DNA of 64,000 nt from assembly GCA_010093705.1 (NCBI GenBank), contig MU006096.1, positions 1,049,908-1,113,907 of the forward strand. Reading direction: 5' to 3'. Under the pieces are notes generated by a model. That model searched no databases, was not told where the DNA came from, and saw only the letters and a list, made by a program, of their open reading frames with translations. Position numbers and translations under genes: made by a program. Source of the DNA: Patellaria atrata CBS 101060 (taxonomy: Eukaryota > Ascomycota > Dothideomycetes > Patellariales > Patellariaceae). Below are positions 14,540 through 53,856 of this stretch, piece after piece. Numbering within the stretch: position 1 is the stretch's first letter; every line of letters starts with the position of its first letter.

Positions 14540-15035
14540 TGAGTGTGCGTTAGAGAGCGTCATGATATATGTATGGAGTTTAGCTCGATGGACGGGAGGG
14601 TTTGATACCTCCTTTCAGTCGTCTGCCGTAAGTCTATTGGAAATGGCAGGGTGTATTTTTGGCGTCGTGGAGTTTGGTCATGTTATGAAAGCATATGCAG
14701 TTATATGGATTATCGTATAAATATTAGGAATAGCTATGCAAATTTGCTGGCATTATCCCAGAATGGCGACTCTGATATCCACGTGTGCAAAAATTCCGTC
14801 ATCTTCAGGGTTAGGTTGAGATGATGACTCTACCTAGGGTCCGACTCGTTTCAAACATGACTTTTAAGCCGTAGGGCCCTATAGCCTTTTATTTAACAAG
14901 TCAGACCTCTACTCTGGGCCTATCATCTTGCTCTGGAAATAGCCGAATTGTTGCAGACGCGCACACCGGAGGCAATATAGAGTACAACTCTATGAGCCAA
15001 CCAGATCTGTCCATACTTCTGAGAAGTAAATATAA
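14540..15035. other. Intergenic region left of the inverted-repeat element
   Basis: 3' region of the glycosyltransferase-like gene. No ORF of interest and no motif recognised. Confidence 0.5.
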
Positions 15036-17058: not shown

Positions 17059-18399
17059 TGTGAGTGTTCGCAGATAGTAAATGACTTGTAATTTAGAAAT
17101 GTATTTGCTCTTCTGTGAAACGTTTCCAACAGAATTTCGGAAGAAGATGTATGGAATTGGGGAATTGGAGCAGCAGAAATTTCGTAGCTGTCGAAAAGCT
17201 ACCCTCAGCTTTTCTTTTATAATACCAAAGAAGAAATCATCAACAATAGTCTCTACGTCAAAGACAAGACACAAGCTCTCGAGGTAAGAGCAATAGCTTC
17301 TATGCATCACACCCTCATCATGCAACTTAACCTACCACAGCCGTGGACCTACCAAACCGGCAATGAAAGATGCGTTCCTGGGACATGTTTCTTTCTTGGC
17401 TTCTGTTCCAGAACGGAGCAAGACCGCCCAAAGAGTCAGAGTTGGGGCATTCTATCAGTGATCTGCTACTTAAAGCAGCGTTTCTGATATCTGGCGTTAT
17501 GCACGTGCATACTAACCTTGTATGTGATTCGTTCATGTTATGAACCTTTTGGATTTCTGGGAGAGGTTGATACACGCCTTGTTCTCTTGGCGGAGTACTT
17601 GGCCAAAAGTGATGCCGATGGAGGTCCAAGGAAACTTTAGGAGCACGAGGAGATACCTAACGCTGAAGTACAGTAATATCAATATTCGTTCCTCCCTGTC
17701 AAAGCTGTCTCAGGAACCCCTTGGACCGAAGGGACGTTCCCAGGTGGGCAGTTATCCCAGAGAAATAGAGTATTTCGGTATGGTAGCCACATACTCCGTA
17801 CTCTGTACCAGTGCTGACGGAGGTGGTCATCAAATCCGAAGGCGATACGAGAGTCCACATGCATGACGATCGAAGTTTCATTTTACTGAAGGTTGAAGAA
17901 TCAGGCAATGATGCCCTTGGAATGGAAAGAAAGGAGATCGACAACATTGTGAGGTTGGACTGAATAATGGACTCAAGGACTGTTCTGGTGGATTGAGGAG
18001 TTTGTTCAGTCCGCCAAGCATGTTTCTGCTTTCGGCCTAGTTCAAGTCTGGAAACTACCTTAGTTCTACCTTACAGTACTCGCGAAGTCGCGACTCTAAT
18101 CTTTCTTGTTACCTTGCGCGTTATCAAACCCAAATATCCTGTGGAAATAGTTTTACCTATACGAATTGATTGGCTTGAAATATCGACTTCTCGCGAACTG
18201 TACTCCTGAAGATTTCAAAGCTCATATTGTACAGACTTCTGCTCGTCGCAAATTACCCTATCAGAAACTTCTTAGGTCATAATAAAGATACATCTAAAAT
18301 GCTACTATCATCAATAGGGGTGTTTCATCTTGAGAGACTTTAACGGCTCTTATGGTGAACAGAGTCGTTCTTTCGCCCTAGCCATTTCCCTTGCGAATT
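17059..18399. other. Divergent intergenic region
   Basis: 1.3 kb between the GPI-type gene (minus) and IML1 (plus). Several small ORFs on both strands lack any domain, start context or splice partner. No feature recognised besides presumed promoters. Confidence 0.5.
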
Positions 18400-21300
18400 A
18401 TGTCTAAGAATAACGATGATAGCTTTAAGAAACATGTACAAAAAGTCTGCACGCTTAGAACGCACGATGACGCTTTTTCAAAAGATGATGTTATTGTCAA
18501 CATTGAAAGATTCCCCGAACTTAATTTATCAGTCGGATCGTTGGCGAAGATTTTAGCAATAAAAAAGACTACTCAGGTCCATGATTTTCACAGAGATCCA
18601 TCGAATCAACATGAAGATGGAAGTGGAGCAGATGGATCGGCGAAGACATCTCGGCGTCGACAAAGGGCCGCTCCAGTAACGGTGACCTTAGATGAAACTG
18701 GTTCAACCATCGCTGGGGGACGGGAGGTGGACCTCCAGAAATGCTATGTTCTTGTGGTCAAAGGTGCTTCTCAAGAGCAAAAAGCTAAGCTATCTCACCT
18801 ACAAGTTTCAATTCACAAGTCAATAGCGGACATTTTTGGCTTTCGTAATCAGATGCAAGTCGTACTTTCCACCGCCGACGAGGAGTCACATTCAGCATCC
18901 CATGTGGAAATCACATTTCGAGAGGGCTACCTTTCCAGAGCGGATATGTGGCGGTTAACACTATCAGAACTCAGTCAAAAGAGCGTATATAAGGGTCAAA
19001 AAATACTCTTCTTGGGCACTGTCAGAGGAATTGTGAAAAATGTCTACGTTAACGAGCAATCCACTAGAACTGCGTATTTTTCCTCCTCATCGAAACCGAT
19101 TTTCCGGAGCGAGTCAGCGCGATACGTCCTATTCATTCAAATGTCAAAGGAGATGTGGGATTTTGACAGTGAAGGATCAGGAGAGATCATGTTTAATAAA
19201 GTTATCAACGGCTTTCTTCCAGAACTCTTCAAGAGATGGATGAAAATAAACGCACGGCATCTAGTTACTATCATTTTATTTAGCCGCCTGGAGTATGAAG
19301 TGCCAGCGCAGCTAGATCAAATGGGATCAGAAATAAATAATCCTAATGAGGACTTGCCGAGCAACAACACCGCAACCGAAACGCGTGACTTCTACCGTGT
19401 CGTCGTCAGCGAAATGGCAAGCGGAGATTGGATTAACATATTATATCAACTTAAGAAAGAATTCAAAACCTTCCTACGCGATGTTTCGCTGGTTTCATTT
19501 GAGGATATTCGTCTTCAGCAGCTTGACCAGGATAATTCGGACCATGAGGAAAGACCCCCCGTTGTCATTGCGGGAAAACCTACAAGATCATTCAATGGCA
19601 ATGTTTTGGAAGCAATCAATCTTGCTGCAACACAATTCTCCGAGGATTACATAGATCGCGACTTGATTCGTACTGGGATCTCAATCATTGTTATTTCACC
19701 CGGATCTGGCCTTTTCGAGGTCGACTATAACATGTTGAAATTGACCACTGATACGCTTGTGGGTACAGGGATCGGCATCGATCTCGTTTGCCTTTCGCCC
19801 ATGCCATTACATTCTGTACCATTATTCAAGTACCGTAGCCCAGTTTTAGTAAAACCCATACGTTCAGAAAATGCACCTTTGGAAAAGAAATACTCTGTAC
19901 CTCATTTTCGCTCAAAAGGGCTAGAGCACAGCAAAAGACTCGATCTAGACCGACTTCTAAAAAGCGAAGAGCGTCAACGTCATGGTTTACCCCCTTTGGT
20001 TGATATAGAACCTGGGGAATGGGGATATGCAATCCCCCATTGGCTTGACATATCATTCTGGTCAGGTCCAATTGACGAGAGTTTTGACTCGTCTCGGGGG
20101 AAACAGACACTCAAGGTCGCTAATAAGCGTCGTCAAACCCATTTCAATAATTTTGACCTCCGTTGTCGAATGTATGAGCTGCAGATGATGGGTATAACGG
20201 ATATTTTCAGCGGTATTGATTATTTAGGCCTGCTTTCGGATGAGGTTGGAGAATATCCAGGTTTACCGACTGGTTTCTGGCGTCGCCCATTCCAGGATAG
20301 AAAGCAACGTCAGTATTTAACAGAGGAAAATGAGCCATATGGAGATATGACCCCCTTACGCTTAGCGTTGAGTGATGAGGAAGAAATCACTAGTGGGGAG
20401 GAAGACCGATTGAAACCTTTGAGAACTACACAACTATCGCTGAAAGGTTGGATGGAGGATTATGACCGCAGGACGTTCCAGAAATTGACGGACAAAGAGC
20501 GACCCCGTCAGCTCCTTCACGTAACGAGTAGAAAGCGACTGGAAGCAAACTCTACAAAAAAGGATAGCACACATCTGAGTCAAGACGACGAAGATCAAAG
20601 CTCTTCAAAGGTCAAATCGGCCCTAGAATTGACTCGTACCTATGATAGTCAGTCGAATAGAGCTGGCCGCTCGAATAACGGTAGCCGCAGAGCTTCGGTT
20701 GTTCCTCAGGCGGTGGGCGTAGGAGAGAAGACTATCGAACACAAGGGACATAGGAACTCATCGATTACTCCTCTTCGGGCAACAAGGCCAGGAAATCATC
20801 AACAACGCGTTGTTTCTGACTTCGAACAACGGCATAAATACGCAAACATGTCCGAGCCCCAGGTGACTCATAGTATTAGTCCACATCTTAGGTCAGATAA
20901 CTTAGGTTACGGAAGAGGTCACAATGATGGGGCTTATAATCCAGCATATGCGCGTAGCATGTATAGTTCTTCCCCTTCATCTCAAACCGGTGTTAAGAGT
21001 GGAAAGTCCGAGGTTTCAGCGGCGTCCAAAGATGATGCTGTGAAGAATGAGACCGAACAGCGTCGTCCCGTCAAATCTTTCACCAGGTATTTAAGCTTCG
21101 AAAACTGGGGTTTCGGGGCGAGGACGGACACTGCAAGTACGGCTACGGCCATGGGCGAGCATGCTCAAGCGGCTCCAAAGTCTGAAGAGCCTTTAAAGAG
21201 GATCTCGAGTGTTGGAAGACAAGACGCTCCCGATGCCGCGTCCACTCTTGGTGCCCTACTTGGTCGAAAAGCTCCCCAACGATTTCAGTCTACATCTACC

Positions 21301-24156
21301 ATCGACACAAGTAGCGCAAGGGATGTCACTGATGATTCAGGTCGACGTACTCAACCTATTACCATAAAAGCTAGTAATGTATTTATGAACCCCGATGAAT
21401 CTGAGAAGGCACTCATTGCAAGTGGCTCAGGAGATACCGTAAAAGAAACCCGAATCGTGCATACTCATGAACCTCTTCCTGGAGGACAACCCTCAAGTGC
21501 GGGTAATGCTGGATTATTCATTTATTCTGGCTCAAAGGAACTTCGAAGACGTGTCGGCCCAAAACCACTTGATCTTGAGTTTACGAAGGCAAAGCAAGAG
21601 CATCCCGACGTTATATCTCCGACGAGTGCTTTGGCACCTTGGCTAGTTCTCGTGAATCCGTGTAACCCCAAGAAAAATCATGTTCTTGTAAACAGCCAGT
21701 TTCGCCGATGGCAACATGTATTTCCTCGACCTCTGCGCACATCTTCTATCAAGTGGAAATCACTATGCTCTCCCGCCTCTGTACCCCTGACTAATGAATA
21801 TTTCCCTTCGCCGGACCAACTTGCAGAAGAGTACCAAGAACGACCTTACAAAATTGCCCAAAATGATGAAGATGATAACAGCGATATACCCAAGAGCAGA
21901 AAAGCTTTGATAAGAGAGCTTGTAGCTCATCGCCTTTCTCATGGTTTCCAAGTCATCGTGGGTCAGCTTGTTGCAACCTATTCGGGGGCTCAACCTATTG
22001 ATACCATGACACTATTCAAATCGGATTTCATGTCCCAGGACGGTGATCGAGTATTCATGTGCGTCGGCCATACGATCCACCAATTAGTCTGCGCTCCAGA
22101 AGGCGGGATTGAAGTGCGACGGTTCAGTCGAAAGCCAACTGTGGCTCTAGAATCCCGCGCTGGAGTCGACTCACCCCTTGAATACACGCCATTTATTCGC
22201 ACAGCCCTTGAACTAGATTATCGACCCCGTAAAGTTACACTTAAACCTCCTGGAGATGATTACAACTGGAATTATATCGATAACTTCCTAGCTGGATACT
22301 ACGAAGATTTTTCAGATTCACTGCGGTTTTGGCGCGCTCGCTTCGTTCTGATACCTGTTGAACTAAAGACACCCCATCACAATCGTCGTCTACTGCCGTC
22401 AGTAATTGAAGACTCGGAGGAGGAAATGAGACTCGAGGGTATCAGGAAGCTGACTCAAGTATGGCAAAGAAACAGATACATACCTCCTGAGGAAAGAGCT
22501 CACCAATCCCGTGCACGCAAGCGCAAGATTGATACAAACCCACTTGCGATCGAGTATCAAACAAGAGATCCATCCGTCATTATTGCCGCGGGTCCGGATA
22601 ACCCCATGCTAGCTGAGGGAGAACAAAGGGGATATGTCACTCAAATCTTTGCGGATTCTGAGCTGTATCATAGATCAAGTATCGATCTGCACAAGCTAGC
22701 ACAGGACTTGCAAGGTGAAAAGGGCATTCCAATGGGAGACAGAAGATGGCACCTTCGATTGCATTACAACTGTTTTACGGGATTTGACTTGACGACCTGG
22801 CTATTGCAGAATTTCAGTGACGTCGATGACCGGGACGAAGCTGTGGAGTTAGGTAATGACCTAATGAAACGGGGACTGTTCCAACATGTGTCTAGGAAAC
22901 ATCAATTCCGAGATGGGCATTTCTTGTATCAAATCACGAGCGAATACCGCCCCGATGCTAGAATCGGATGGTTTCCGAGGCGTGCGGACCGCTCCGTGCC
23001 TTCAACTCCGTACTCAGACCTGGATAAAGGAGGTGCTGGCCGGAAGCACTCTCGCCCAAGTACTGATAGCGATAATGAAAGGACGCCTACGAAAGAAGAG
23101 GCTCCAAGACGCAAAGTCAAGCTCAGTCATGTTATGCGCTACGATGTTGATCCACGTAAGAAGTCGTATCGTTCAGAGATCATCAATCTACATTATGATA
23201 GGTTGCATAACCCGGATAATTGTTACCACATTCGCATAGATTGGATGAATGTCACAGCTAAGTTTATTGAGGATGCCATCCAGTCCTGGTCTTCCACCGT
23301 TGAGAGATACGGATTGAAACTTGTCGAGCTTCCAATCGCTGAAGCTTCAAGTATATCAGAAGGACATCCTTTCAGGGCGCCGTATATCGTTAAACTTGCT
23401 GTTCAGCCCCCAGCACAACAGCCAGCACATTTCTTCGATACAACCTCCTTCACCCCTCTACCTCTCCAGGACAAGTTCTTCTATAACAAGGCTTTGCTTA
23501 GGAAGCTTAACTTTGTCCTTGACATTGAATCAGCTGCAAGTTTTCCACCGAACGTTGACGTGAAATACTCCTGGGGTAAGCCAGACTACAAGTACACACA
23601 GTATATCCATAAATCGGGGGTGCTCCTAGTCCAGATAACTGATGAAGGCCATTTTCTACTTACTGCAAACAGACTTGCGAATACTCGTACGTCTAAAGAT
23701 CCAAACAGGTTCAACCTCACCGAACACAGTGATCGCTGGTCTGCTGGACCCGCGCATGGTACGCATAGTGGACGAAATTCAGATCGAACTTCGCCGTACA
23801 ATTCGCCGCTAGTGCGAGCGATCCCAGAGAACTATCCTGTTCCACCCAGGCATTGGAGAATGGATAGATCGCGTTTGACCCCAGAACAGCTTAAAGATGA
23901 TATGGAAGCGTTCTGTTCTGATGAGGCCGCGCTTAGATCTTTCTACGATGAAGTATTCAAGCCAAAAGCTTCTCCGAGTCCTAACGTCACACCGATCCTA
24001 GATTCTCAGATTCCAGCGCTTGGGCTGCCTCCGAGCATTACTGTTAGGGACACATCACCATCACCAAGGTTAGGAGCTCCAATGATATCATCCGACTCCG
24101 CCGCCTATAGGAAGAGATACTCAATGGCTGATATTCACGAGCTGAGGCATCCGTAG
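18400..24156 (+). CDS. IML1: Vacuolar membrane-associated protein Iml1 (DEPDC5, GATOR1/SEACIT subunit)
   Basis: Uninterrupted 1918-aa ORF from ATG 18400. Iml1/DEPDC5 is the GAP-bearing subunit of SEACIT/GATOR1 at the vacuole, acting on the Rag GTPase Gtr1 to restrain TORC1 when amino acids are scarce. The N-terminal part contains the family block VIVNIERFPELNLSVGSLAKI and the long region with SARYVLFIQMSKEMWDFD. A Ser-rich disordered middle (about residues 730-1000) follows. A conserved block with FMCVGHTIHQL and YNWNYIDNFLAGYYEDFSDS comes next, then a DEP domain (about residues 1447-1512, WHLRLHYNCFTGFDLTTWLLQNF...GLFQHVSRKHQF). A C-terminal domain ends near DEAALRSFYDEVF. Length and order fit fungal Iml1. 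The next gene downstream is an FNIP/Lst4-type protein acting on the same GTPase system. Confidence 0.95.
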   Translation: MSKNNDDSFKKHVQKVCTLRTHDDAFSKDDVIVNIERFPELNLSVGSLAKILAIKKTTQVHDFHRDPSNQHEDGSGADGSAKTSRRRQRAAPVTVTLDETGSTIAGGREVDLQKCYVLVVKGASQEQKAKLSHLQVSIHKSIADIFGFRNQMQVVLSTADEESHSASHVEITFREGYLSRADMWRLTLSELSQKSVYKGQKILFLGTVRGIVKNVYVNEQSTRTAYFSSSSKPIFRSESARYVLFIQMSKEMWDFDSEGSGEIMFNKVINGFLPELFKRWMKINARHLVTIILFSRLEYEVPAQLDQMGSEINNPNEDLPSNNTATETRDFYRVVVSEMASGDWINILYQLKKEFKTFLRDVSLVSFEDIRLQQLDQDNSDHEERPPVVIAGKPTRSFNGNVLEAINLAATQFSEDYIDRDLIRTGISIIVISPGSGLFEVDYNMLKLTTDTLVGTGIGIDLVCLSPMPLHSVPLFKYRSPVLVKPIRSENAPLEKKYSVPHFRSKGLEHSKRLDLDRLLKSEERQRHGLPPLVDIEPGEWGYAIPHWLDISFWSGPIDESFDSSRGKQTLKVANKRRQTHFNNFDLRCRMYELQMMGITDIFSGIDYLGLLSDEVGEYPGLPTGFWRRPFQDRKQRQYLTEENEPYGDMTPLRLALSDEEEITSGEEDRLKPLRTTQLSLKGWMEDYDRRTFQKLTDKERPRQLLHVTSRKRLEANSTKKDSTHLSQDDEDQSSSKVKSALELTRTYDSQSNRAGRSNNGSRRASVVPQAVGVGEKTIEHKGHRNSSITPLRATRPGNHQQRVVSDFEQRHKYANMSEPQVTHSISPHLRSDNLGYGRGHNDGAYNPAYARSMYSSSPSSQTGVKSGKSEVSAASKDDAVKNETEQRRPVKSFTRYLSFENWGFGARTDTASTATAMGEHAQAAPKSEEPLKRISSVGRQDAPDAASTLGALLGRKAPQRFQSTSTIDTSSARDVTDDSGRRTQPITIKASNVFMNPDESEKALIASGSGDTVKETRIVHTHEPLPGGQPSSAGNAGLFIYSGSKELRRRVGPKPLDLEFTKAKQEHPDVISPTSALAPWLVLVNPCNPKKNHVLVNSQFRRWQHVFPRPLRTSSIKWKSLCSPASVPLTNEYFPSPDQLAEEYQERPYKIAQNDEDDNSDIPKSRKALIRELVAHRLSHGFQVIVGQLVATYSGAQPIDTMTLFKSDFMSQDGDRVFMCVGHTIHQLVCAPEGGIEVRRFSRKPTVALESRAGVDSPLEYTPFIRTALELDYRPRKVTLKPPGDDYNWNYIDNFLAGYYEDFSDSLRFWRARFVLIPVELKTPHHNRRLLPSVIEDSEEEMRLEGIRKLTQVWQRNRYIPPEERAHQSRARKRKIDTNPLAIEYQTRDPSVIIAAGPDNPMLAEGEQRGYVTQIFADSELYHRSSIDLHKLAQDLQGEKGIPMGDRRWHLRLHYNCFTGFDLTTWLLQNFSDVDDRDEAVELGNDLMKRGLFQHVSRKHQFRDGHFLYQITSEYRPDARIGWFPRRADRSVPSTPYSDLDKGGAGRKHSRPSTDSDNERTPTKEEAPRRKVKLSHVMRYDVDPRKKSYRSEIINLHYDRLHNPDNCYHIRIDWMNVTAKFIEDAIQSWSSTVERYGLKLVELPIAEASSISEGHPFRAPYIVKLAVQPPAQQPAHFFDTTSFTPLPLQDKFFYNKALLRKLNFVLDIESAASFPPNVDVKYSWGKPDYKYTQYIHKSGVLLVQITDEGHFLLTANRLANTRTSKDPNRFNLTEHSDRWSAGPAHGTHSGRNSDRTSPYNSPLVRAIPENYPVPPRHWRMDRSRLTPEQLKDDMEAFCSDEAALRSFYDEVFKPKASPSPNVTPILDSQIPALGLPPSITVRDTSPSPRLGAPMISSDSAAYRKRYSMADIHELRHP

Positions 24157-26330
24157 AGGAATTATAACCTTCTCACACTTCTCCTGTACTGTACTCCGTT
24201 CATGCCGTGATAAGCGTTTCGCAGGTTGTCGTATGCATTGTTTTCACATATTCACGGATTACAGCCCTGCTCATGTTATCCTAGGAATAGCCAAGCGGCC
24301 GGTATCGGGGTTTTGACTGGTAAAAGGCGTTGAAATGGATTACTGTTGGTGTGGATGGATTCTCGAAAGGATTCCTGTCGAGTGTTGTTATTCGGCGGAT
24401 ACGCGGGACGACTGGGCCCTAGCGACCCAATCTCTCGGAAATGCTGCGTGATGCGTTGTGCTCATTATGCGGAATTGAGAAATTCGTAGCCGTCAGTTTT
24501 CAGTCATCCATGGTGTTGCAACGGTATGATAGCATCGTGTTTTTCGGCATGCCGTAGAGTTTTCGAAAAGCTTCAGTTCGGACAAATGTATAATAGCGGA
24601 GTTATGGCTGAGACTCGGAGGTACTGTATTTTATCTAGATTACAAGCTTGGATCGATGGATGCCTCACCATATTATCCTCTATGTCACATGCTTCATCCT
24701 CTCACATCTGCTCGTATCCTTATGGAGAAGTCCGTTTTATACTTTAATTTCTTTCGGCTCCTTTGACGGTCAAATGCAAAGATGATCAAGAGGAGTACTA
24801 TGAGACGAAAGATGCGCCAAAGTTACTACGTCAAGTGCACAAGTGTGCAGATTCGACAGCGTACTGACAGTAGTGGAGTAACAGGAAGTTCGCATGGCCT
24901 TTAACCGGGCTTTTCAACCGTAGAAGTAGCAACAGCAGCGCCGCGCCCAGATTCTGCTCTAGATTGATCAGTTTGAAGATCCGGGGAAATACAGCAATAT
25001 CAGAGAAACCTGGGCAATAGAGCTTCGAGAAGATGGCACGGCAATATATGATCAGATCAATCATGCTGACTTTGTAATATCTTTTGCATAAGTCGCCGTA
25101 GCTAGAACTAGTTCCACTGTACGTATGGACTTCTTCTTTCTATCAACGTTTTTCTCCCCCGTCTGGCGAACTGCCAGAACTCTCGTTGAAAGGGCTTTGC
25201 TAAATGCATGAGGCTTACTCTCCACTACTGTAGAACTAGAGACGCTCCTATCATTGATCGAAAATGAACAACGGTCAGCCCTGCCGATACTGCAGCTTTG
25301 GTTCACATCAGGTGTGATAGCATGATGCAAGTAATGAATTTTCAATCACCACTTCTCTCGTTGAGAAGGAGATCGAACGATCACTACGAATACAGAATCC
25401 GGACCCGAGGATCTCGAAATGTGCGGCCCTCGGTAACAGAGCCCAAGGGACATAATCTTCCCCGTAGATCAGCGAGGGCATCATCCTGAGTACTTTATAA
25501 ACACTTTGTGAACAGTTAATCAGTGACAAGATCTCCAGAGGCGTGAGAGATAGACGGGAGGATGACGGGAGCTGCCGATAGAAGCGTATATTTCTTTAGT
25601 TCCTTTTTGAAGCTGAAGTATTTTTCTGCTTAGAATAGACAGCTTGGAGGTACTCCGTATGCAGCCACTTCTGGACTTGTATGTGGAAGGATTAAGGATT
25701 TTCTATACCGCACTACATTACTACTCACACTACTGTACTTTTGATCCCGTCACTCTAGATTCCTGATTATTTTCGGCTTGTATGTGTTGAGAATTGGAGA
25801 GCCGTATCGAGATTCGAGAAGCCGAGTCTGAAATTGTAGCAACCAATGAAGGAAAAGGTTTTAGACCGCTTCTTTACCTTGCAACCTCACTTGCCCATCC
25901 TTGGCTTAGTATAGTTAGCCGTTAGGTAGGTTCCACGACCACAAAAGGCAATCAACCACGCTCTACGCCGACAGCTGCCTTTCACATTTCCTTCACCTTT
26001 CTGTAACATCACAACAAACCCTCTGCTAGATTTTCACCTTTACCTGCAAATTAATACCATACCCATTTACATAGACACATCTCAAAGGGTCACGTTAATT
26101 GAAAGAAGTCAGGCTACATTACTTTGTGGCCCAAGTTCCTCACCATCATCCGTCCAGTTACTCCGATCACGCTTTTGACTACTTACACGGCCATGTGCTT
26201 TTCATGCTCCTCAATCTCTGTGACGGAGTCTTGGAAACCTGACCTTAATACCCGCATACCTTACAACTCCGAATCTTGTAGCCCTTAAATTTCTACCGCA
26301 CATGGAAACATCTTCCAATAATCCGCGAAG
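24157..26330. other. Long intergenic region between IML1 and the FNIP gene
   Basis: 2.17 kb, both flanking genes on plus. It holds a GTACTGTAC motif at 24186-24194 and a pyrimidine-rich, ATG-poor stretch just upstream of 26331 that would suit a long 5' leader. No ORF with a recognisable domain and no RNA gene seen. Confidence 0.5.
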
Positions 26331-29300
26331 ATGCTCGGCCAACTTCTACACTCGTTCAATCCCTCCCGTCGCGGAGTACCGCGCCCACCTACGATGATCG
26401 AATCGGAAGTTGAAGATGCACATACGAAGAATCTACTGTTTCCAGACGCTGCTATACTGTTACCTGAGGGTCAGGCATATCACCTCTCGAGCCCGCCTAG
26501 TACCGTTGGAAATGTGTCTGGAAATGGTTATGACGGAACGCAAGAAGGGAATCTTTCAGATTTAGAACACTCAAGAGACGTTAGGTTTATAATAGCGCAA
26601 GATGAAGTACACGGCCATCGTGCGGTGTTGTTCGATTCAAAGCAGCACTCACTGTCCGAATCCCCGAAAGAAAGTCCTACAATGAGGGCAGTCCGAAGGC
26701 CTTCCGTGAGCGGTGGACCTTCACTGCCACCTACTGGCGCCTTCTCCTCCCGTAGAGCTTCGCTAACTTCAGAAATTACTCCACCACGGTCACCAGCTGC
26801 TCTCCCAGGCGGGGGAGTCTTTTTCCGTTCGCGAGCACGAAATACCTCTATATCGTCCATGCCCAACATTGATGAGACAACTTCTAATCGCACATGGGAG
26901 TCGGATGAGATAGTCAAGACGTGCTTAGACTGCATGTTCGGGAATGTAGCTATGGGGTATCGTGGACCGGGTTACAAGTTTCACATTGTACCCCTCGAGC
27001 CAAAAGCTCCTGAACAAAGTATCCCAAGCCCCATACTAGAAGGTTCAAGCTCTTTCGGTAGGGCGGAAGGGAGACGACGAAGTAATTTGGCACGATCTTA
27101 TACTCCATCGAATCCTCCTCCAGATCTACCTCCTTGGAGTGCTGAAAGCCCTAATCTGAGTAACAAAGACGCACCTCGCAGGACTTTAATCTACACTCGT
27201 ACCTTTTCCGTACCTGATCAGATTGAGCCAACGACTGGTACCCCTCGCGACAGTCCGATGACTCCCCATGGGTCGTTAAACAAAGGTCATAGCTTTCCAT
27301 TTTCACGAAATGACGCAGGAAATAGGCCATCTAATCTTCACCAACAGAGATCCAGAGCTACTAAATCCCCAATGTACGCTATTACTCTTATAGTGCACCT
27401 TCCAGTTTCGCAATCGCGCCCTTCGGTGCGGTTTCCTAAAATGGCCCAACGGACTCCAGGATCTCTCCACGGTCACGATTCTCTTGCATCCTCATTGGAT
27501 TCAGATCAGCGTGCAGGATGGTCGCTGATTGACACTGCCTCTGTGATGGACTCGTTCTGGTCTTCAACTAGCGATGTCGATGAGCGCGTTGATGCAGTAG
27601 GACATCATTGGGATGTGATTACGCGAACTTTGAACGCACTACAAGTCGTGGCGCAGAAGAAAATTATCGAACTCTTTAAAGCACAAGGTATGGTCGATTC
27701 AGCCGTACCTGCTTCCCAGTTGTCTAATCGCACGTCGCTCCCCACTCAAAACGGTCATCCTCAGGGCAATCGCCAACACTATCTTCGACCGTACGAACTC
27801 GCCTTCGATAAGGAAATCAAGAATGCGGTTGCTCGTGCCAGCGAGAGGGTTGTACGTGGTATGAAGATTCCGAGAGTGATAACCGGGCAGGGTCGTTGGG
27901 GTGTCTGGCGTGAGGAAGCCAGATGGTTGGGACGATGGGCTGGTGGCCGAGATCAGAACTTCTTTTTCTTCAATCTTTTGACAGCATTCCTTGGGACACA
28001 TACTGAGTGGCTCAGCATACTTGGACCCAAATGGCATCGGAAACGACATTACGAGCAGCAGAAATCGAATGTCGGGGAAGATATTGGCCTATTTAGCAGG
28101 ACCGTTATCGCCTCAACAGATAAAATGGCGGCAAGAAGATTGATTTTTCTTCTCTCTACATTCCTACCTGCATCGCATATTACTCAAGATAATGCTTCAC
28201 CCGCTCGACCAAGCACGTCAGCATCGTTCAGGGCATATTCTCAGTCACCACCATCAAATCTTACCGTTTCCCGTCAACCTTCACTTCGACGGACAATTAA
28301 TCGACGTGGAAACAGAAGCCGCACTAATATGAAGCATTCCCTTCCTGGTAAGGGACAAGAGTCGTCGACCGCTAATGTTACTGAGGAAAGCGAATCAGCA
28401 GATCCTTCTTTCTCGCAGTATCATCATTCACGTCGCCCTTCAGAGGCACTGTCATTTGTCACAATAGCTGATCTCCCTAATCTCTCACATATTGACCTGA
28501 ATGCGCGAAAGTGCAGTGCTGCCACGACATCCACTGTTACCCCTGAGGATGCAATACCGGTGGCTCACTTCACGAGCCATCGCGGTACACACACCGGTCC
28601 GAGACCAGGAAGCAGCAGTAGCCTTGCCTCTACCAACCTAATCAATGCTTTGCAGAGAAATAATAGTGCCACGGCGAGCAGTCCTAGCTCGGAATCTCAA
28701 CCCAGTCGATGGGGAAGTCTCATGAGCTTTTGGAGCAGCAATGGGCGACGAGAGTCGTCTACGGATCACAGTGATATACTTCAAACTACTGATGAGGGCT
28801 TGGGAATTTCTGGCGCGGGACCGAGAGTACAAGATCGGAGATCAAAGAGTCGATTGGAACAAATGGTGGATGAAGCAGGAATGGTGGGAACGTATAAGCA
28901 CGACTTTGATGATCCCTCTCAACCAGTATCAGAAGACTCTGCAGCTTCTTCGCGACAACTTCCATCTGATGTTCATATCATCCGTACCGCGGGCCGACCC
29001 ATTCCGGCCCGACCGCGGACATCCCATTCGCCTCTTAAACTCTCTGTTAACTCTGCAGATGGCGTCATCGATGTCGATATTCCAATCCCCTCGTTTGGTT
29101 CACCACTCAACTCTCCTTTTCTCGGAGCTGCTCAATCTGTTTCTAGCGCTGAGGGTGGCTCTTCGTATGGCCAGACCTCGATACAGTCGTATTCTCGTCG
29201 CCAAGATCACGAGAATCGCGTCAACGTCGCCGGCTGGCTGAGCAAATTCCATCCGGATTTCTCCCTTCAGGGAGTGAATCAATATCCAGAGCTCGAACGC

Positions 29301-30098
29301 GATATCCGAGAAGCCATGCAGCTCGAACCAACGCCGCTATCGTCTTCAGTAACGCCAACAATCGAATCCGGCCCAGTGGAGAAGTGGATCGATGTCGCCC
29401 AAACCCTGATCGCAGACACGACCTCCTTCACAGTTAAGCGAATCCGTCTCCGACGACACGTCCGCCTCATCCCGATGCCGAACCAACCTGCCATGACGCC
29501 CGGACCGCACGCACAACGCAGTCAATACGGCAATCCGTACAGCATGGGCGCCGGCCCGAACCTCCCGATGACGGAAATGCTCCTCGGCGAGCAGTGGGAC
29601 GACGAACAGATCTGCGACCTCGACGGCATCCTCGCCGACGCCGTCGAGCGCGTCCTAGCCACCAGCACCACCCCCGACACAACGAAAGACCCGAGCCGCG
29701 TCAGCAGCCGCAGCAGTTCCGTCCGCGGTCGTCCTGGTCTCCGGTCTACTCGCTCCATGGATGTGGACCGCGACACTACCAATATCACTCCAGCGCCTTC
29801 TAACACCTCTACGGCCACCGTCGTTCCAGACTCCCAATCGACTCTAGAACCAGAGGAGCAAGCGATACAGACACCCGTCTTGGAGATCCCGAAACACGAG
29901 TGTAAGTGCGTCGTCCTAGGCGCGCTGGAACAGATCGTCAAGACGGTTAATAAAGGCGAGAAGCGCGCGAGGGAGAAGGCGGAGGGGAAGAACATACAAG
30001 AGAGTAAGAGGAAGGAGAGACTCGGTGCTGGCGATAGCACGCTTAGGGATGGTGTTAGGAGGTGGTTGCGCGACGTCGAGGATGCCGCGGCGAAGTAG
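26331..30098 (+). CDS. Folliculin-interacting (FNIP/Lst4-type) protein
   Basis: Uninterrupted 1255-aa ORF. Near the N-terminus it has the FNIP pattern DVRFIIAQDEVHGHRAVLFDS followed, after a Ser/Pro-rich insert, by VKTCLDCMFGNVAMGYRGPGYKFH, the hallmark of the FNIP N-terminal (longin-like) domain. A middle block (YAITLIVHLP, then WDVITRTLNALQVVAQKKIIELF) and a block IPRVITGQGRWGVWREEARWLGRWAG...FFFFNLLTAFLGTHTEWLSILGP (written in pieces) match a DENN-like core. The C-terminus closes with CKCVVLGALEQIVKTVNKG. Large Ser/Arg-rich disordered inserts suggest phosphorylation control. In yeast, Lst4 with Lst7 (folliculin) is a GAP for Gtr2 and acts on TORC1. Assignment rests on motif recall without a search. 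Confidence 0.82.
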   Translation: MLGQLLHSFNPSRRGVPRPPTMIESEVEDAHTKNLLFPDAAILLPEGQAYHLSSPPSTVGNVSGNGYDGTQEGNLSDLEHSRDVRFIIAQDEVHGHRAVLFDSKQHSLSESPKESPTMRAVRRPSVSGGPSLPPTGAFSSRRASLTSEITPPRSPAALPGGGVFFRSRARNTSISSMPNIDETTSNRTWESDEIVKTCLDCMFGNVAMGYRGPGYKFHIVPLEPKAPEQSIPSPILEGSSSFGRAEGRRRSNLARSYTPSNPPPDLPPWSAESPNLSNKDAPRRTLIYTRTFSVPDQIEPTTGTPRDSPMTPHGSLNKGHSFPFSRNDAGNRPSNLHQQRSRATKSPMYAITLIVHLPVSQSRPSVRFPKMAQRTPGSLHGHDSLASSLDSDQRAGWSLIDTASVMDSFWSSTSDVDERVDAVGHHWDVITRTLNALQVVAQKKIIELFKAQGMVDSAVPASQLSNRTSLPTQNGHPQGNRQHYLRPYELAFDKEIKNAVARASERVVRGMKIPRVITGQGRWGVWREEARWLGRWAGGRDQNFFFFNLLTAFLGTHTEWLSILGPKWHRKRHYEQQKSNVGEDIGLFSRTVIASTDKMAARRLIFLLSTFLPASHITQDNASPARPSTSASFRAYSQSPPSNLTVSRQPSLRRTINRRGNRSRTNMKHSLPGKGQESSTANVTEESESADPSFSQYHHSRRPSEALSFVTIADLPNLSHIDLNARKCSAATTSTVTPEDAIPVAHFTSHRGTHTGPRPGSSSSLASTNLINALQRNNSATASSPSSESQPSRWGSLMSFWSSNGRRESSTDHSDILQTTDEGLGISGAGPRVQDRRSKSRLEQMVDEAGMVGTYKHDFDDPSQPVSEDSAASSRQLPSDVHIIRTAGRPIPARPRTSHSPLKLSVNSADGVIDVDIPIPSFGSPLNSPFLGAAQSVSSAEGGSSYGQTSIQSYSRRQDHENRVNVAGWLSKFHPDFSLQGVNQYPELERDIREAMQLEPTPLSSSVTPTIESGPVEKWIDVAQTLIADTTSFTVKRIRLRRHVRLIPMPNQPAMTPGPHAQRSQYGNPYSMGAGPNLPMTEMLLGEQWDDEQICDLDGILADAVERVLATSTTPDTTKDPSRVSSRSSSVRGRPGLRSTRSMDVDRDTTNITPAPSNTSTATVVPDSQSTLEPEEQAIQTPVLEIPKHECKCVVLGALEQIVKTVNKGEKRAREKAEGKNIQESKRKERLGAGDSTLRDGVRRWLRDVEDAAAK

Positions 30099-36023: not shown

Positions 36024-38832
36024 TCAAATGTCGCGGACAAGGCGAGCACCTGCCCAGACATAGGGGTAATTACGCTGATACCAGTTAACAAAGCTCTTCC
36101 GACCCGCAATTCGAGGGTGTGTTGCCCATGACCCTCCGAGAACGATGTTATGCTTTGTATCAAAGAAGTCAGCCGTATAGGCAGGGTAGAGCTTCATAGG
36201 TTGGAAGCCCTCGTATCTCTCCAACACAGAGCTGGTCCATTCCCACACTCCACCTAGTTCTCCTTGACCAGCGAGGTTATTCCCCTTTTGGACAATTGAA
36301 ACTGGGTGCCAGTGCCGAAATCCAACATTAGCTCCCTCGAGGTTGACAAAGAGCTCGTGAGGATTGAGACCTGATACTGTGTTGGAGAACTTAGACAAAG
36401 GATCGGATGGTGGCGTTTCTTCCACACCATCATTGACCAGATGCCTATTCTCCGTTACTTTCATTGTCCGTCCTACCCGGTAAAAGAAAGATACTTACCC
36501 ATTGACAGCTGGGATGGTCTGTGCACGAGTGTTTCCCAAGTTGGCCCTCTTGAGACGCTCAACATGCGCATATATGCTACGAGTCTCTTCCATAGTGGGT
36601 ATACGACCTCCCATCCACTTAGCGCAACCGGAGATTTCATCGTAAGAAGCGGAGACCGGCCAATCCAAAGCAAATTCGAGCGGAACGAGGCCATATACGG
36701 TTCTAACAAATTTTCCGTCCGTTAATTCTTTGAGGCCGCCATTTTTGTACCTAGGGGAGCCATGTGCCGAGTGCGAGACACGCGACAGATGGGAGGAGTC
36801 GCGTTCGGAAACGGTTTTCCTCGAACCTACAACCCAGGAAGCGGGTAACTTTTCGATCCGATTACTTTGTAGATATTCGAGGAACTCAGCGTTAGTGATA
36901 GCTCGCGCTTTTGCCTCAAACTTGGAAACATGAACAGCTCTCTTAGGTTTCTCATTATCCCATCCGAAGTACCTTGGGGGACCTACATCGTCCTCGGCAT
37001 CCTCAATACCAAGAACTATACCACTTTCTGGTATGGTAAACCACTCGTTTTCAACAGCTTCGGATCGAGCCCGGAACGCCATGGCTTCAAAATCTGGAGT
37101 GACTGTTCCAGGAGGTGGTAATGTTTTCTCACTCTGAACGAGCATGTAAAGAAGGGTCTCTAAATGCATGATTTCGTGCTCGAAACCAAGCCATAGCGCC
37201 CGTCGAATCTTAGGATTTTGCAATAATTCATCACCTTCATAAAGGCTCTTGACTCTCTCACGAACACGAGTTTGAAATCCTAAGATCTCAGCTACTGGTG
37301 GCCATGAATCCGGTATCTCACTATGAGCATGGCAAAGTTCAGGATTCTCTACGTCAGGATCGATACCACGTTCGAATATCTGGGCATAATAATTCGGCTC
37401 GCTTGGTTGTCCTTCGGTTGCGCGAGTGATATGAATGTCCATAAACGTCGGGATATGGCCAAGGTAGAAAATGCACGCGTTCCGCAGTTTTATTGGCTTG
37501 GATAGCAGTTCCTCGTTCGGAATCATGCCCTGGGTCACAACATCCCACGCAGCCCACAGACTTAACCATTCTGCTATACCGGGAAATGGCTTAGATGCGT
37601 ATATCTGCGGGTTCAAGGAGTAAGACACTTTGGAACCGGACACCATATGTAGACCTTCATACATAACTTACGTTAGCCAAATCTGATAGCATCACAAATC
37701 AAAACAAATTTTGAAGAGCGAGAAGTACCGTAGTCACCAATCCGGTTATACCAAGAAGCTCCCTCTACCAGGCCGGCCGACCTCCATAGCTCTTCAATTT
37801 CATGAGGAGAATATTTGTAACTCTCCTCAATCCTGACTCTCTCCCCTTGCTTAATAAGGATGCCACAAACGGTGACATCCTTAATGGGAGATACGAATGC
37901 TTGATGACGACCAGCTTGGGAGTCGTATTCGCCGATAACGCTCCACTCTTTCAGTACAAATGCATCATCTCCTAGTAGACGATTTGCATGCCGAAGACCA
38001 TTGAGAATAAACTCGTGCGTTAAGTTAATCTTATCGTTATACGCATGATAGACCTTCCATGAATCCTTACAAGAGTCTATTCCTACGAGAAGAGTATCAC
38101 TTTCTTGCATCACCTCTACAAATTTGGATAGAAACTGAGCTGCACCGGGTCTGTTGAAATTACCAATACTCGATCCTAGTGTCAAGATGCTCTTTGGTTT
38201 AGACCTAATCCCCGGGCTCTTCAGCCACTCATACCCGTCATCATAAGTCCCGTGAAGACCAAAGCACTGGACATAGCGGAACGTGTGCCCTGATACTGGT
38301 TCAAGTGTTCGTTGGAGCTCATTTAGGTTCAAATCTAGGGCGTAATACTCGATAGGTTTCTTCGCATTCTCAAAAGCCTGGAGCAGGATGCTCACTTTAC
38401 GAAGATTGCTACGAAATATGTCAGTTGCGATTGTGATTTACGCACATCTATAGGCGCGCTGGAAGCGAGATCATACCCGCTCCCCAGCTCAAGAACAATA
38501 GAGCCAGGCTTGATGCGCTGGGCAATGCGATCAGCATAGGTACTGAGGACCTCAGTTTCGGCATTGGTAAGGTAGTATTCGTCCAGATAAGTGATCTTCT
38601 CGAATAACCTAAGTCCCGTTTCATCATAAAGTAGCAATGTTGGAAGTGCTTTTTCACCCTCCTGCTTTAGACCCTGATGGACGTCATCCGTAATAGAATA
38701 GCTGACGTTGCTGCTACGAATGTCAACGATACGTACTCCAGCATTAGAATCCGGATCCGACGGTGAGCCGAAACGACCCTGATATTTCTTCGCATGGGAC
38801 ATCGCTCTATCGATATCACAGTCCACGGCCAT
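36024..38832 (-). CDS. EGT1: Ergothioneine synthase Egt1 (histidine trimethylase / hercynylcysteine sulfoxide synthase)
   Basis: Four exons (38477-38832, 37729-38408, 36499-37654, 36024-36444; introns 68, 74 and 54 nt) give 870 aa, matching fungal Egt1. The N-terminal half is the EgtD-like SAM-dependent histidine methyltransferase (PTLLLYDETGLRLFEKITYL; SAM motif VLELGSGNLRK, completed across the first splice; LTLGSSIGNFNRPGAAQFL), which makes hercynine. The C-terminal half is EgtB-like: a DinB-type domain with the iron-binding HxxxHxE (FEHEIMHLET, near residue 500) and an FGE-sulfatase fold ending GGVWEWTSS, GGSWATHPR and NYPYVWAGARLVRD. It joins hercynine and cysteine to the sulfoxide; a separate lyase (Egt2, not in this window) would finish ergothioneine. 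An in-frame TTG at 38853 precedes the chosen ATG 38832. Confidence 0.96.
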
Positions 38833-42252: not shown

Positions 42253-43315
42253 ATGGTCTACTACTTCACAAGCAATGTGGTTACGCCGTCAGCCTTCATA
42301 TATGTAGGCAAGGACAAAGTGGAAAGTACGCATCCTACATGATAATGAAGTAGTATTGTGGGCGAAACGAGAGCTGAAGCTGACTCCTACATCTCATAGA
42401 TGAGGAACTGATCAAATATGGGTGGGACGAGGATATATGGTAAGGTGTCCTGCATAGTACGCATCTTGACCTTCTAGATACTCCTGCTGATCCCGGTCAG
42501 GGTGAGTTCATGTTTAAGTCTACCCGAAGCCTTGAATACCAATATGAGCCGGACTTAGTTCCACGTCGACAATCTCTCCAGCGCGCACATCTATGTTCGC
42601 CTACGAGAAGGAGAGAAATGGGATAAAATACCCACAGACTTGTTAACCGACTGTGCCCAGCTGACCAAAGCAAATTCAATTGAGGGTCTGATATTCAGTA
42701 TCTCATGTCTTTGCGAGTGCTGATAGCCTCCTTATAGGGAATAAGAAGGACAACATTACAGTGATATACACGCCTTGGTCTAACCTCAAGAAGGATGGAG
42801 GTATGGCCGTAGGCCAGGTTGGATTTAAAGATCCTAAACTTGTAAGACTTATCAACTCTTTCTCCGCTCATTCCACCACGACGGTAGCGCTTTCGATGTT
42901 CAAGATTTTGTATCGAAATGTAATCCGGTCCCAATATTCTAATTTTTGGAATCTAGGTTAAGAAGATCCATGTCACTAAGCGTGAGAATCCAATCGTTAA
43001 TCGTCTGAACAAGACGAAGGTTGAGAAGTTCCCCAATCTTATGCAGGAAAGGGATGATCGGCAAAAGGAACTGAGGATCAAGGATAGGGAAATCCAGAGG
43101 CTCAAGGTTCGTTTTGAACAATATTATCAGATCTCCACACCCTCCGCTAATATGCACTCCTTATGAAGCAAAAAGAAGATGCGAGGATTGCAAAGGAGAG
43201 AAAGGAGCTCGCATGGCAACGTGATCATGCATACGATGATATTTTCTCTGAGGATGCTCTCGCAGCTTCGAGTAACCAGGATCGAGATGCAAACTGGGAA
43301 GATGACTTCATGTGA
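42253..43315 (+). CDS. CCDC25 homologue (DUF814/NFACT-R family), multi-exon with 1-nt micro-exon
   Basis: Modelled exons 42253-42325, 42400-42439, 42501, 42559-42685, 42738-42841, 42957-43106 and 43169-43315 give 213 aa, close to the roughly 208 aa of animal CCDC25. The protein is highly conserved in type: [20 protein letters not shown], then [77 protein letters not shown], a charged coiled coil, and the terminal WEDDFM. The W of DIWFHVD can only be made if a single G at 42501, flanked by a CAG acceptor and a GTGAGT donor, is kept as an exon. Without it the frame breaks. The NFACT-R fold relates to ribosome-quality-control and nucleic-acid-binding proteins; the fungal role is unknown. It converges with the LYR gene, 90 nt apart. 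Confidence 0.88.
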
Positions 43316-49214: not shown

Positions 49215-49249
49215 TTGACGCTTGACGCTTGACTCTTGACTCTTGACTC
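49215..49249. repeat. Short tandem repeat, 7-nt unit x5
   Basis: Five consecutive copies of TTGACGC/TTGACTC (two of the first form, then three of the second). Intergenic. Confidence 0.85.
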
Positions 49250-49713
49250 TTCCAGGTTGAGCATTATTGGAGAGCCCGTGTGTACGGAGCGTACGATAAA
49301 ACTGTTAAGCGATATATCTTCAACGAGATAATCATCCTCGCCGAAAAAGATGGGGAAGAAGAAGAAGGAATAGATTCAATTGAAACATGGACAGGGACAA
49401 CCACTCCTGCCATCCTGCAAGAACGTTGCTGCAGTTGGTGAACTTGCTGCAGCTTCATGCCAGGTGTGGAAGAGGATCGTGATTCGTGAACGCCGACAAT
49501 AGAAGTGGCTTCCATGTGGCTGGTTGTAGTGAGTAGTGAGGCATCCCAAGTTGCCTCTTTACAGATGTTCTCTATTTCCTCTAAGGTATGTTCCGCGATC
49601 CCCGTGCGCCTCTGCAAGTATAGTACTGTACCAGCAGCTTTACTGTTATTATACGAAAGTGAATACTGTAGTACCTTGGGCTTTTGAAGGTTCTACTTTC
49701 TTGCCGCAGTATC

Positions 49714-52855: not shown

Positions 52856-53590
52856 NNNNNNNNNNNNNNNNNNNNNNNNNNNNNNNNNNNNNNNNNNNNN
52901 NNNNNNNNNNNNNNNNNNNNNNNNNNNNNNNNNNNNNNNNNNNNNNNNNNNNNNNNNNNNNNNNNNNNNNNNNNNNNNNNNNNNNNNNNNNNNNNNNNNN
53001 NNNNNNNNNNNNNNNNNNNNNNNNNNNNNNNNNNNNNNNNNNNNNNNNNNNNNNNNNNNNNNNNNNNNNNNNNNNNNNNNNNNNNNNNNNNNNNNNNNNN
53101 NNNNNNNNNNNNNNNNNNNNNNNNNNNNNNNNNNNNNNNNNNNNNNNNNNNNNNNNNNNNNNNNNNNNNNNNNNNNNNNNNNNNNNNNNNNNNNNNNNNN
53201 NNNNNNNNNNNNNNNNNNNNNNNNNNNNNNNNNNNNNNNNNNNNNNNNNNNNNNNNNNNNNNNNNNNNNNNNNNNNNNNNNNNNNNNNNNNNNNNNNNNN
53301 NNNNNNNNNNNNNNNNNNNNNNNNNNNNNNNNNNNNNNNNNNNNNNNNNNNNNNNNNNNNNNNNNNNNNNNNNNNNNNNNNNNNNNNNNNNNNNNNNNNN
53401 NNNNNNNNNNNNNNNNNNNNNNNNNNNNNNNNNNNNNNNNNNNNNNNNNNNNNNNNNNNNNNNNNNNNNNNNNNNNNNNNNNNNNNNNNNNNNNNNNNNN
53501 NNNNNNNNNNNNNNNNNNNNNNNNNNNNNNNNNNNNNNNNNNNNNNNNNNNNNNNNNNNNNNNNNNNNNNNNNNNNNNNNNNNNNNNNNN
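52856..53590. other. Assembly gap (735 N)
   Basis: Unresolved bases. Left flank ends in a T-run; right flank is C/T/A-rich. The missing part must contain the 5' exon or exons of DAD1. Confidence 0.99.
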
Positions 53591-53682: not shown

Positions 53683-53856
53683 GCCCTCGAAAACGTCCTC
53701 CAGTCGATGAACAAGCTAAACCGCAGTCTGGAAGGCGTGATCGCGGTCGGGAACGAGTTTGGCGCCGTGGAGGCGCTGTGGAGCCAGTTTGAAAACGTTA
53801 TGGGGAGGACCGGGGAGGGTCCGGTGGGGGATGAGGGGGGAGAGGAGGAGGGATGA
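53683..53856 (+). CDS. DAD1: DASH complex subunit Dad1, 3' exon only
   Basis: After a clear branch and acceptor (CACTAACTCTAACACAG, ending 53682) the frame reads [20 protein letters not shown] and then [19 protein letters not shown], the core of Dad1, and closes with an acidic Gly/Glu-rich tail at 53856. Dad1 is a small coiled-coil subunit of the fungal DASH/Dam1 ring that couples kinetochores to spindle microtubules. The start and first helix are lost in the N gap just upstream. The phase at the acceptor is 0 or unknown because the preceding exon is not sequenced. Confidence 0.9.

Follow-up and report, generated by a model that had tools for sequence, protein, structure and literature searches.

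A probable one-nucleotide exon between two short introns in the CCDC25 homologue of Patellaria atrata

The 64,000-nucleotide stretch of Patellaria atrata CBS 101060 DNA analysed in this work (contig MU006096.1; hereafter the window) carries at 42253-43315, on the forward strand, a CCDC25/NFACT-R homologue of seven exons and 213 amino acids, in which one predicted exon is a single G at position 42501. Judged from the DNA letters, the junction around this base is best explained, with high probability, by two short U2-type introns placed on either side of a one-nucleotide exon. The sequence-only reading from which we started had already divided the interval into an intron of 61 nt (GTAAGG to GGTCAG), the G at 42501 and an intron of 57 nt (GTGAGT to CTTAG), and these coordinates, lengths and motifs proved correct. 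The organization of the gene is as follows:

42253-42325, + strand: exon 1, 73 nt, with the ATG start
42326-42399, + strand: intron, 74 nt, GTACGC to TAG, with a branch-like CTGAC whose A lies 16 nt before the end
42400-42439, + strand: exon 2, 40 nt, with the TG of the Trp codon at its end
42440-42500, + strand: upstream intron, 61 nt, phase 2, GTAAGG to GGTCAG
42501, + strand: predicted one-nucleotide exon (G), completing the Trp codon TGG
42502-42558, + strand: downstream intron, 57 nt, phase 0, GTGAGT to CTTAG
42559-42685, + strand: exon following the one-nucleotide exon, 127 nt, starting TTC CAC GTC GAC (FHVD)
42686-42737, + strand: intron, 52 nt, with the weak donor GTCTGA
42738-42841, + strand: exon, 104 nt
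42842-42956, + strand: intron, 115 nt, with the reading frame kept
42957-43106, + strand: exon, 150 nt
43107-43168, + strand: intron, 62 nt, acceptor of 1.99 bits
43169-43315, + strand: last exon, 147 nt, with the stop codon TGA at 43313-43315

The intron at 42842-42956 is long for the window, and since the frame continues unbroken from one side of it to the other a hidden exon is not required there.

The 213-residue protein matched the NFACT-R_1 profile of Pfam (PF05670) from end to end (profile positions 1-112 of 112, E 1.7e-33), and three human CCDC25 chains matched it with E-values from 1.1e-60 to 2.1e-60, residues 1-178 being covered at 1.1e-60 and the human alignment being free of gaps around the EDIWFHVD junction. 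With a full NFACT-R_1 domain and a CCDC25 alignment that extends past it, the protein is, on the evidence of its amino acid sequence, a member of the CCDC25/NFACT-R family. The Trp of the junction was also aligned in bacterial RqcH (DIWLH), with weak E-values near 0.01. Pattern matches to the protein numbered two in the viral collection (viral_contigs) and 36 in the prokaryotic one (genome_contigs), none of them confirmed in either.

Removal of the whole interval 42440-42558 as one GT-AG intron of 119 nt breaks the frame directly after DEDI, within the conserved D-I-W-[FL]-H motif. When G 42501 is kept, the junction reads TGG-TTC and the coding sequence comes to 642 nt including the stop, divisible by three as had been claimed for it. 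The base is thus needed both for the frame and for the conserved residue, and it is the only one that separates the AG from the GT of two introns with canonical ends. We enumerated all one- and two-intron GT/GC-AG excisions with introns of at least 30 nt and a flank of 12 nt, and the sole solution yielding TG-G-TTC was the pair 42440-42500 and 42502-42558, with no single intron producing it. The enumeration returned two rows, both serial, which contained this same pair in either order, and no nested solution.

Exactly three single excisions of 118 nt would lead to an identical mRNA if non-canonical ends were admitted, namely 42440-42557 (GT-TA), 42441-42558 (TA-AG) and 42442-42559 (AA-GT), and because the product is the same in all cases RNA-seq alone is not decisive between them and the one-nucleotide exon. 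We consider a single intron of this kind very improbable, as it would again turn the inner canonical sites into a coincidence. To our knowledge, such ends are hardly known among spliceosomal introns.

Models that would yield any in-frame, stop-free product, with donors and acceptors drawn from limited ranges around the junction, were scored against human CCDC25. The model with the one-nucleotide exon reached 499.5, compared with 433.5 for the better of the two in-frame one-intron alternatives, both rejected for the loss of conserved residues, and with 449.5 for the best of 149 other two-intron in-frame models. The micro-exon reading, which is the only canonical pair giving TGG-TTC and has the best protein score, is supported on both counts. 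That the gene is frameshifted or decaying, or that an isoform uses the junction 42440-42581, appears highly unlikely: this junction exists, is in frame and might be chosen by an annotation program, but it removes the conserved motif (WFHVDNLSS) through a poor acceptor of 0.8 bits, and the remainder of the reading frame is intact, which argues against decay.

The quality of the four splice sites was compared with that of 41 introns predicted ab initio in 17 genes of the window, a set whose members had themselves been chosen for good scores. The median length of these introns was 55 nt, close to the 61 and 57 nt of the proposed introns, which are therefore ordinary for the window, as originally suggested. 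Among the 41 introns, 38 were of 93 nt or less and none fell between 105 and 130 nt. The upstream donor (42440) scored 7.06 bits and the downstream donor (42502) 8.25 bits, with 24 and 30 of the 41 introns, respectively, scoring lower. The downstream acceptor (42558) scored 5.06 bits, above ten of the 41, and the upstream acceptor (42500) 2.34 bits, below all of them (lowest value 2.95), a weakness not unique within the gene, where the acceptor of the last intron scores 1.99 bits. A branch-site-like CTGAT at 42487-42491 (+) places its A 10 nt from the end of the upstream intron, and a CTRAY motif was present in 25 of the 41 introns. The downstream intron had no YTNAY branch site in the region 8-50 nt from its end and past its first 10 nt, a motif found in 37 of the 41; a weaker candidate within it is TTGAA at 42532-42536.

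We then estimated how often such an arrangement would be expected by chance. Dinucleotide shuffling of the interval, repeated 100,000 times, produced 1,529 sequences with an AG-G-GT split that left at least 45 nt in each half. The split was joined by a donor at least as good as that observed in 27 shuffles, by both a donor and an acceptor at least as good in 17, and by an equal or better sum of donor and acceptor scores in 137, the last figure being raised by the weakness of the observed acceptor at 42500. Among 8,577 GT..AG intervals of 110-128 nt in the window (overlapping, both strands), 222 contained the split; the donor was as good in three, the sum in 15 and both sites in three, and as AGGGTRAGT has a single occurrence on the two strands of the window, these three intervals may overlap the 42501 locus itself. 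Of 300,000 intron-like 119-mers generated by a Markov model, 10,156 held the split, which was accompanied by a GTRAGT donor in 129, by CTRAY 8-20 nt before the AG in 599, and by both the donor and the branch site in eight.

These frequencies bear on the alternative of one ordinary 119-nt intron (GTAAGG to CTTAG) from whose borders a G was lost in the assembly, at 42439-42440 or at 42558, which we regard as unlikely, though clearly more credible than the other alternatives weighed here. The sequence-only reading had named 42558 as the place of a possible assembly error; this holds for it as one site and not as the only one, given that a loss on the donor side (42439-42440) explains the frameshift equally well. 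The assembly is a scaffolded draft, as seen from a 735-base N run at 52856-53590 directly after a T run, and either site would have been a run of Gs (three or two) before the loss. Moreover, an intron of 115 nt in the same gene indicates that such lengths occur, and the outer donor (7.06 bits) and outer acceptor (5.06 bits) are acceptable. A single intron would include one YTNAY site, TTCAT, at a distance of 48 nt from the acceptor end, but it would share the poor 3' branch region, CTRAY being absent between 8 and 50 nt from that end. A lost G would, however, leave the inner CTGAT-N6-CAG-G-GTGAGT to chance, at the rates given above for the Markov sequences (8 of 300,000) and for the shuffles (27 and 137 of 100,000). 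Long open frames in the window (1924, 1258, 776 and 716 codons) also argue that indels are not common. The 14 predicted exons that reach 700 nt or more, with 24,557 nt and 488 G/C runs of three or more, are open as well, a weaker argument since the decoder constructs exons to be open.

The one-nucleotide exon was also recovered by a homology-free gene decoder trained on the window. With a stop penalty of 0, exactly the seven-exon gene was returned in all 12 local settings, and relaxed decoding of the whole window called 42501 in five of five settings. In the two settings with an intron penalty of 1/300 it was the sole internal one-nucleotide exon, among 69 and 72 exons; in the three with a penalty of 1/100 a further one-nucleotide exon at 14809 and exons of 0 nt were also called, so that the specificity of the decoder is limited. 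Under the stricter original penalties the decoder missed the CCDC25 gene, both window-wide and locally. The exons called on the forward strand by the loosened decoder at 14809 (1 nt) and 15171 (0 nt) are probably artefacts.

Several other features were observed in the window. Domain matches, which mark the stretch as fungal, included Zn_clus, Fungal_trans, Iml1, FNIP, Methyltransf_33 with FGE-sulfatase, and Dad1. Two long uninterrupted frames on the forward strand, an Iml1/DEPDC5 homologue (18382-24156) and a folliculin-interacting-protein (FNIP) homologue (26322-30098), are adjacent. On the reverse strand, Methyltransf_33, DinB_2 and FGE-sulfatase matches lie side by side at 36495-38437, which we take to be the combination of domains carried by Egt1, an enzyme of ergothioneine synthesis. 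The N run may cut the gene of the DASH complex subunit Dad1, whose 3' part at 53683-53820 corresponds to positions 17-55 of 55 of PF08649. A tandem array of TTGACTC (5.3 copies, 96% matches) occupies 49215-49251, and no tRNA was found in the window by ARAGORN.

If the RNA is spliced through the one-nucleotide exon, as we infer, the spliceosome would probably take out the two introns successively, through intron definition, since simultaneous binding of splicing factors to sites separated by a single base is improbable. Either intron could go first, as each has a whole donor and a whole acceptor. Removal of the upstream intron first would leave TG-G followed by an intact GTGAGT donor, and removal of the downstream intron first would leave an intact CAG acceptor followed by G-TTC; both routes would end in TGG-TTC, which encodes the conserved Trp and Phe of the NFACT-R motif, and in the 213-residue protein. 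The cues for the order of removal point in different directions, with the stronger donor in the downstream intron and the consensus branch site in the upstream intron only.

The stepwise excision suggested at the outset is therefore likely in its essence, but the name of stwintron attached to it does not apply. Two adjacent short introns in an apparently filamentous ascomycete do recall the stwintrons known from Pezizomycotina, in which two short introns at one site are removed successively (PMC5639578, available in part). According to that text, the external intron of a stwintron becomes functional only after the internal one has been removed, whereas both CCDC25 introns are complete. For one intron to interrupt a splice element of the other and impose an obligatory order is accordingly the least credible of the explanations, all but contradicted by the absence of nested solutions and by two donors and two acceptors that are whole in the precursor. 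The proposed pair of introns also resembles the ratchet points of recursive splicing in its juxtaposed acceptor and donor and in stepwise removal, and differs in that ratchet points, in the part of the source available, lie in long introns (PMC8605326), while the CCDC25 introns are short and one base would remain. The one G between AG and GT led us to reject the class of ratchet points proper, or 0-nt exons. Recursive splicing at ratchet points is not known to leave a base in the mRNA.

One-nucleotide exons are very rare, as the sequence-only reading had put it, yet they have been published, including one from Fusarium (PMC12940212; this and the following sources were available in part). The accessible text on Fusarium CYP621A presents its one-nucleotide exon as unprecedented among fungal genes, states that each of the 24 genes in the paper has AGGGT, and proposes that a cryptic exon compensated for the loss of an exon base (PMC12940212). 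The CCDC25 case is alike in being an ascomycete nuclear gene with one G in an AGGGT context that restores a conserved motif, and in an interval roughly double that of a typical intron (119 nt in CCDC25, compared with 139 nt in F. graminearum). It differs in that the gene is another, widely conserved one, and in the position of the base, third in a Trp codon where CYP621A has it in the middle of a Gly codon. CYP621A also has the support of 20 Fusarium orthologues and 18 reads (PMC12940212), whereas the CCDC25 exon is predicted from a single sequence. The searches made in one open-licence library turned up no account of CCDC25 introns in fungi; a microexon has been reported for Trichoderma Xlr2 in the part of that source available (PMC11121469). 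The papers that came up on recursive splicing in ascomycetes, PMC7138796 among them, dealt mainly with stwintrons.

Among plants, Arabidopsis APC11 has a constitutive one-base exon needed for the frame, for which stepwise removal by intron definition was proposed; there the base is an A lying 333 nt into a 422-nt interval, and it was proven by mutation of the base (PMC4674806, in the text available). Plant VPS55 likewise has a one-base exon followed by a GTRAGT donor and absent from reference annotations, and differs in having RNA support and in its conservation across diverse land plants, with a second Selaginella transcript from which intron retention removes the one-base exon (PMC8831610, available in part). 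The same text indicates sequential removal around plant microexons, with more reads for splicing of the downstream intron in most of them (PMC8831610). Mitochondrial one-base exons between group II introns, as described in the available part of PMC12308204, belong to a different splicing system. We would advance only tentatively, at somewhat less than even confidence, that the CCDC25 exon is fixed and constitutive, produced by two independent introns of different phase that are removed stepwise through a one-nucleotide ratchet point (CAG-G-GTGAGT). It would then join CYP621A as the second example from a fungal nuclear gene, and would suggest that the AG-G-GT arrangement recurs.

Regarding origin, alignment of the two introns with one another gave a local score of 5, a value that 1,992 of 2,000 shuffles also attained, and blastn-short with E up to 5 found no match beyond 12 nt between them and the window apart from themselves; in the lack of mutual or window similarity there is no sign of an intron duplication. 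The upstream intron is complete and has a branch-like site, which would favour two separate introns over a cryptic exon that followed the loss of a base. Insertion of two introns a single base from each other would predict that an intron of roughly 60 nt stands alone in some sister species, at TG|G or TGG|TTC, whereas the loss of a base followed by the adoption of a cryptic exon, the route suggested for CYP621A, would predict sister species with one long intron and an extra G. If the reading is true, one-base exons would extend beyond plants and the Fusarium P450s to a fungal gene that is widely conserved, and they may be commoner than annotation suggests.
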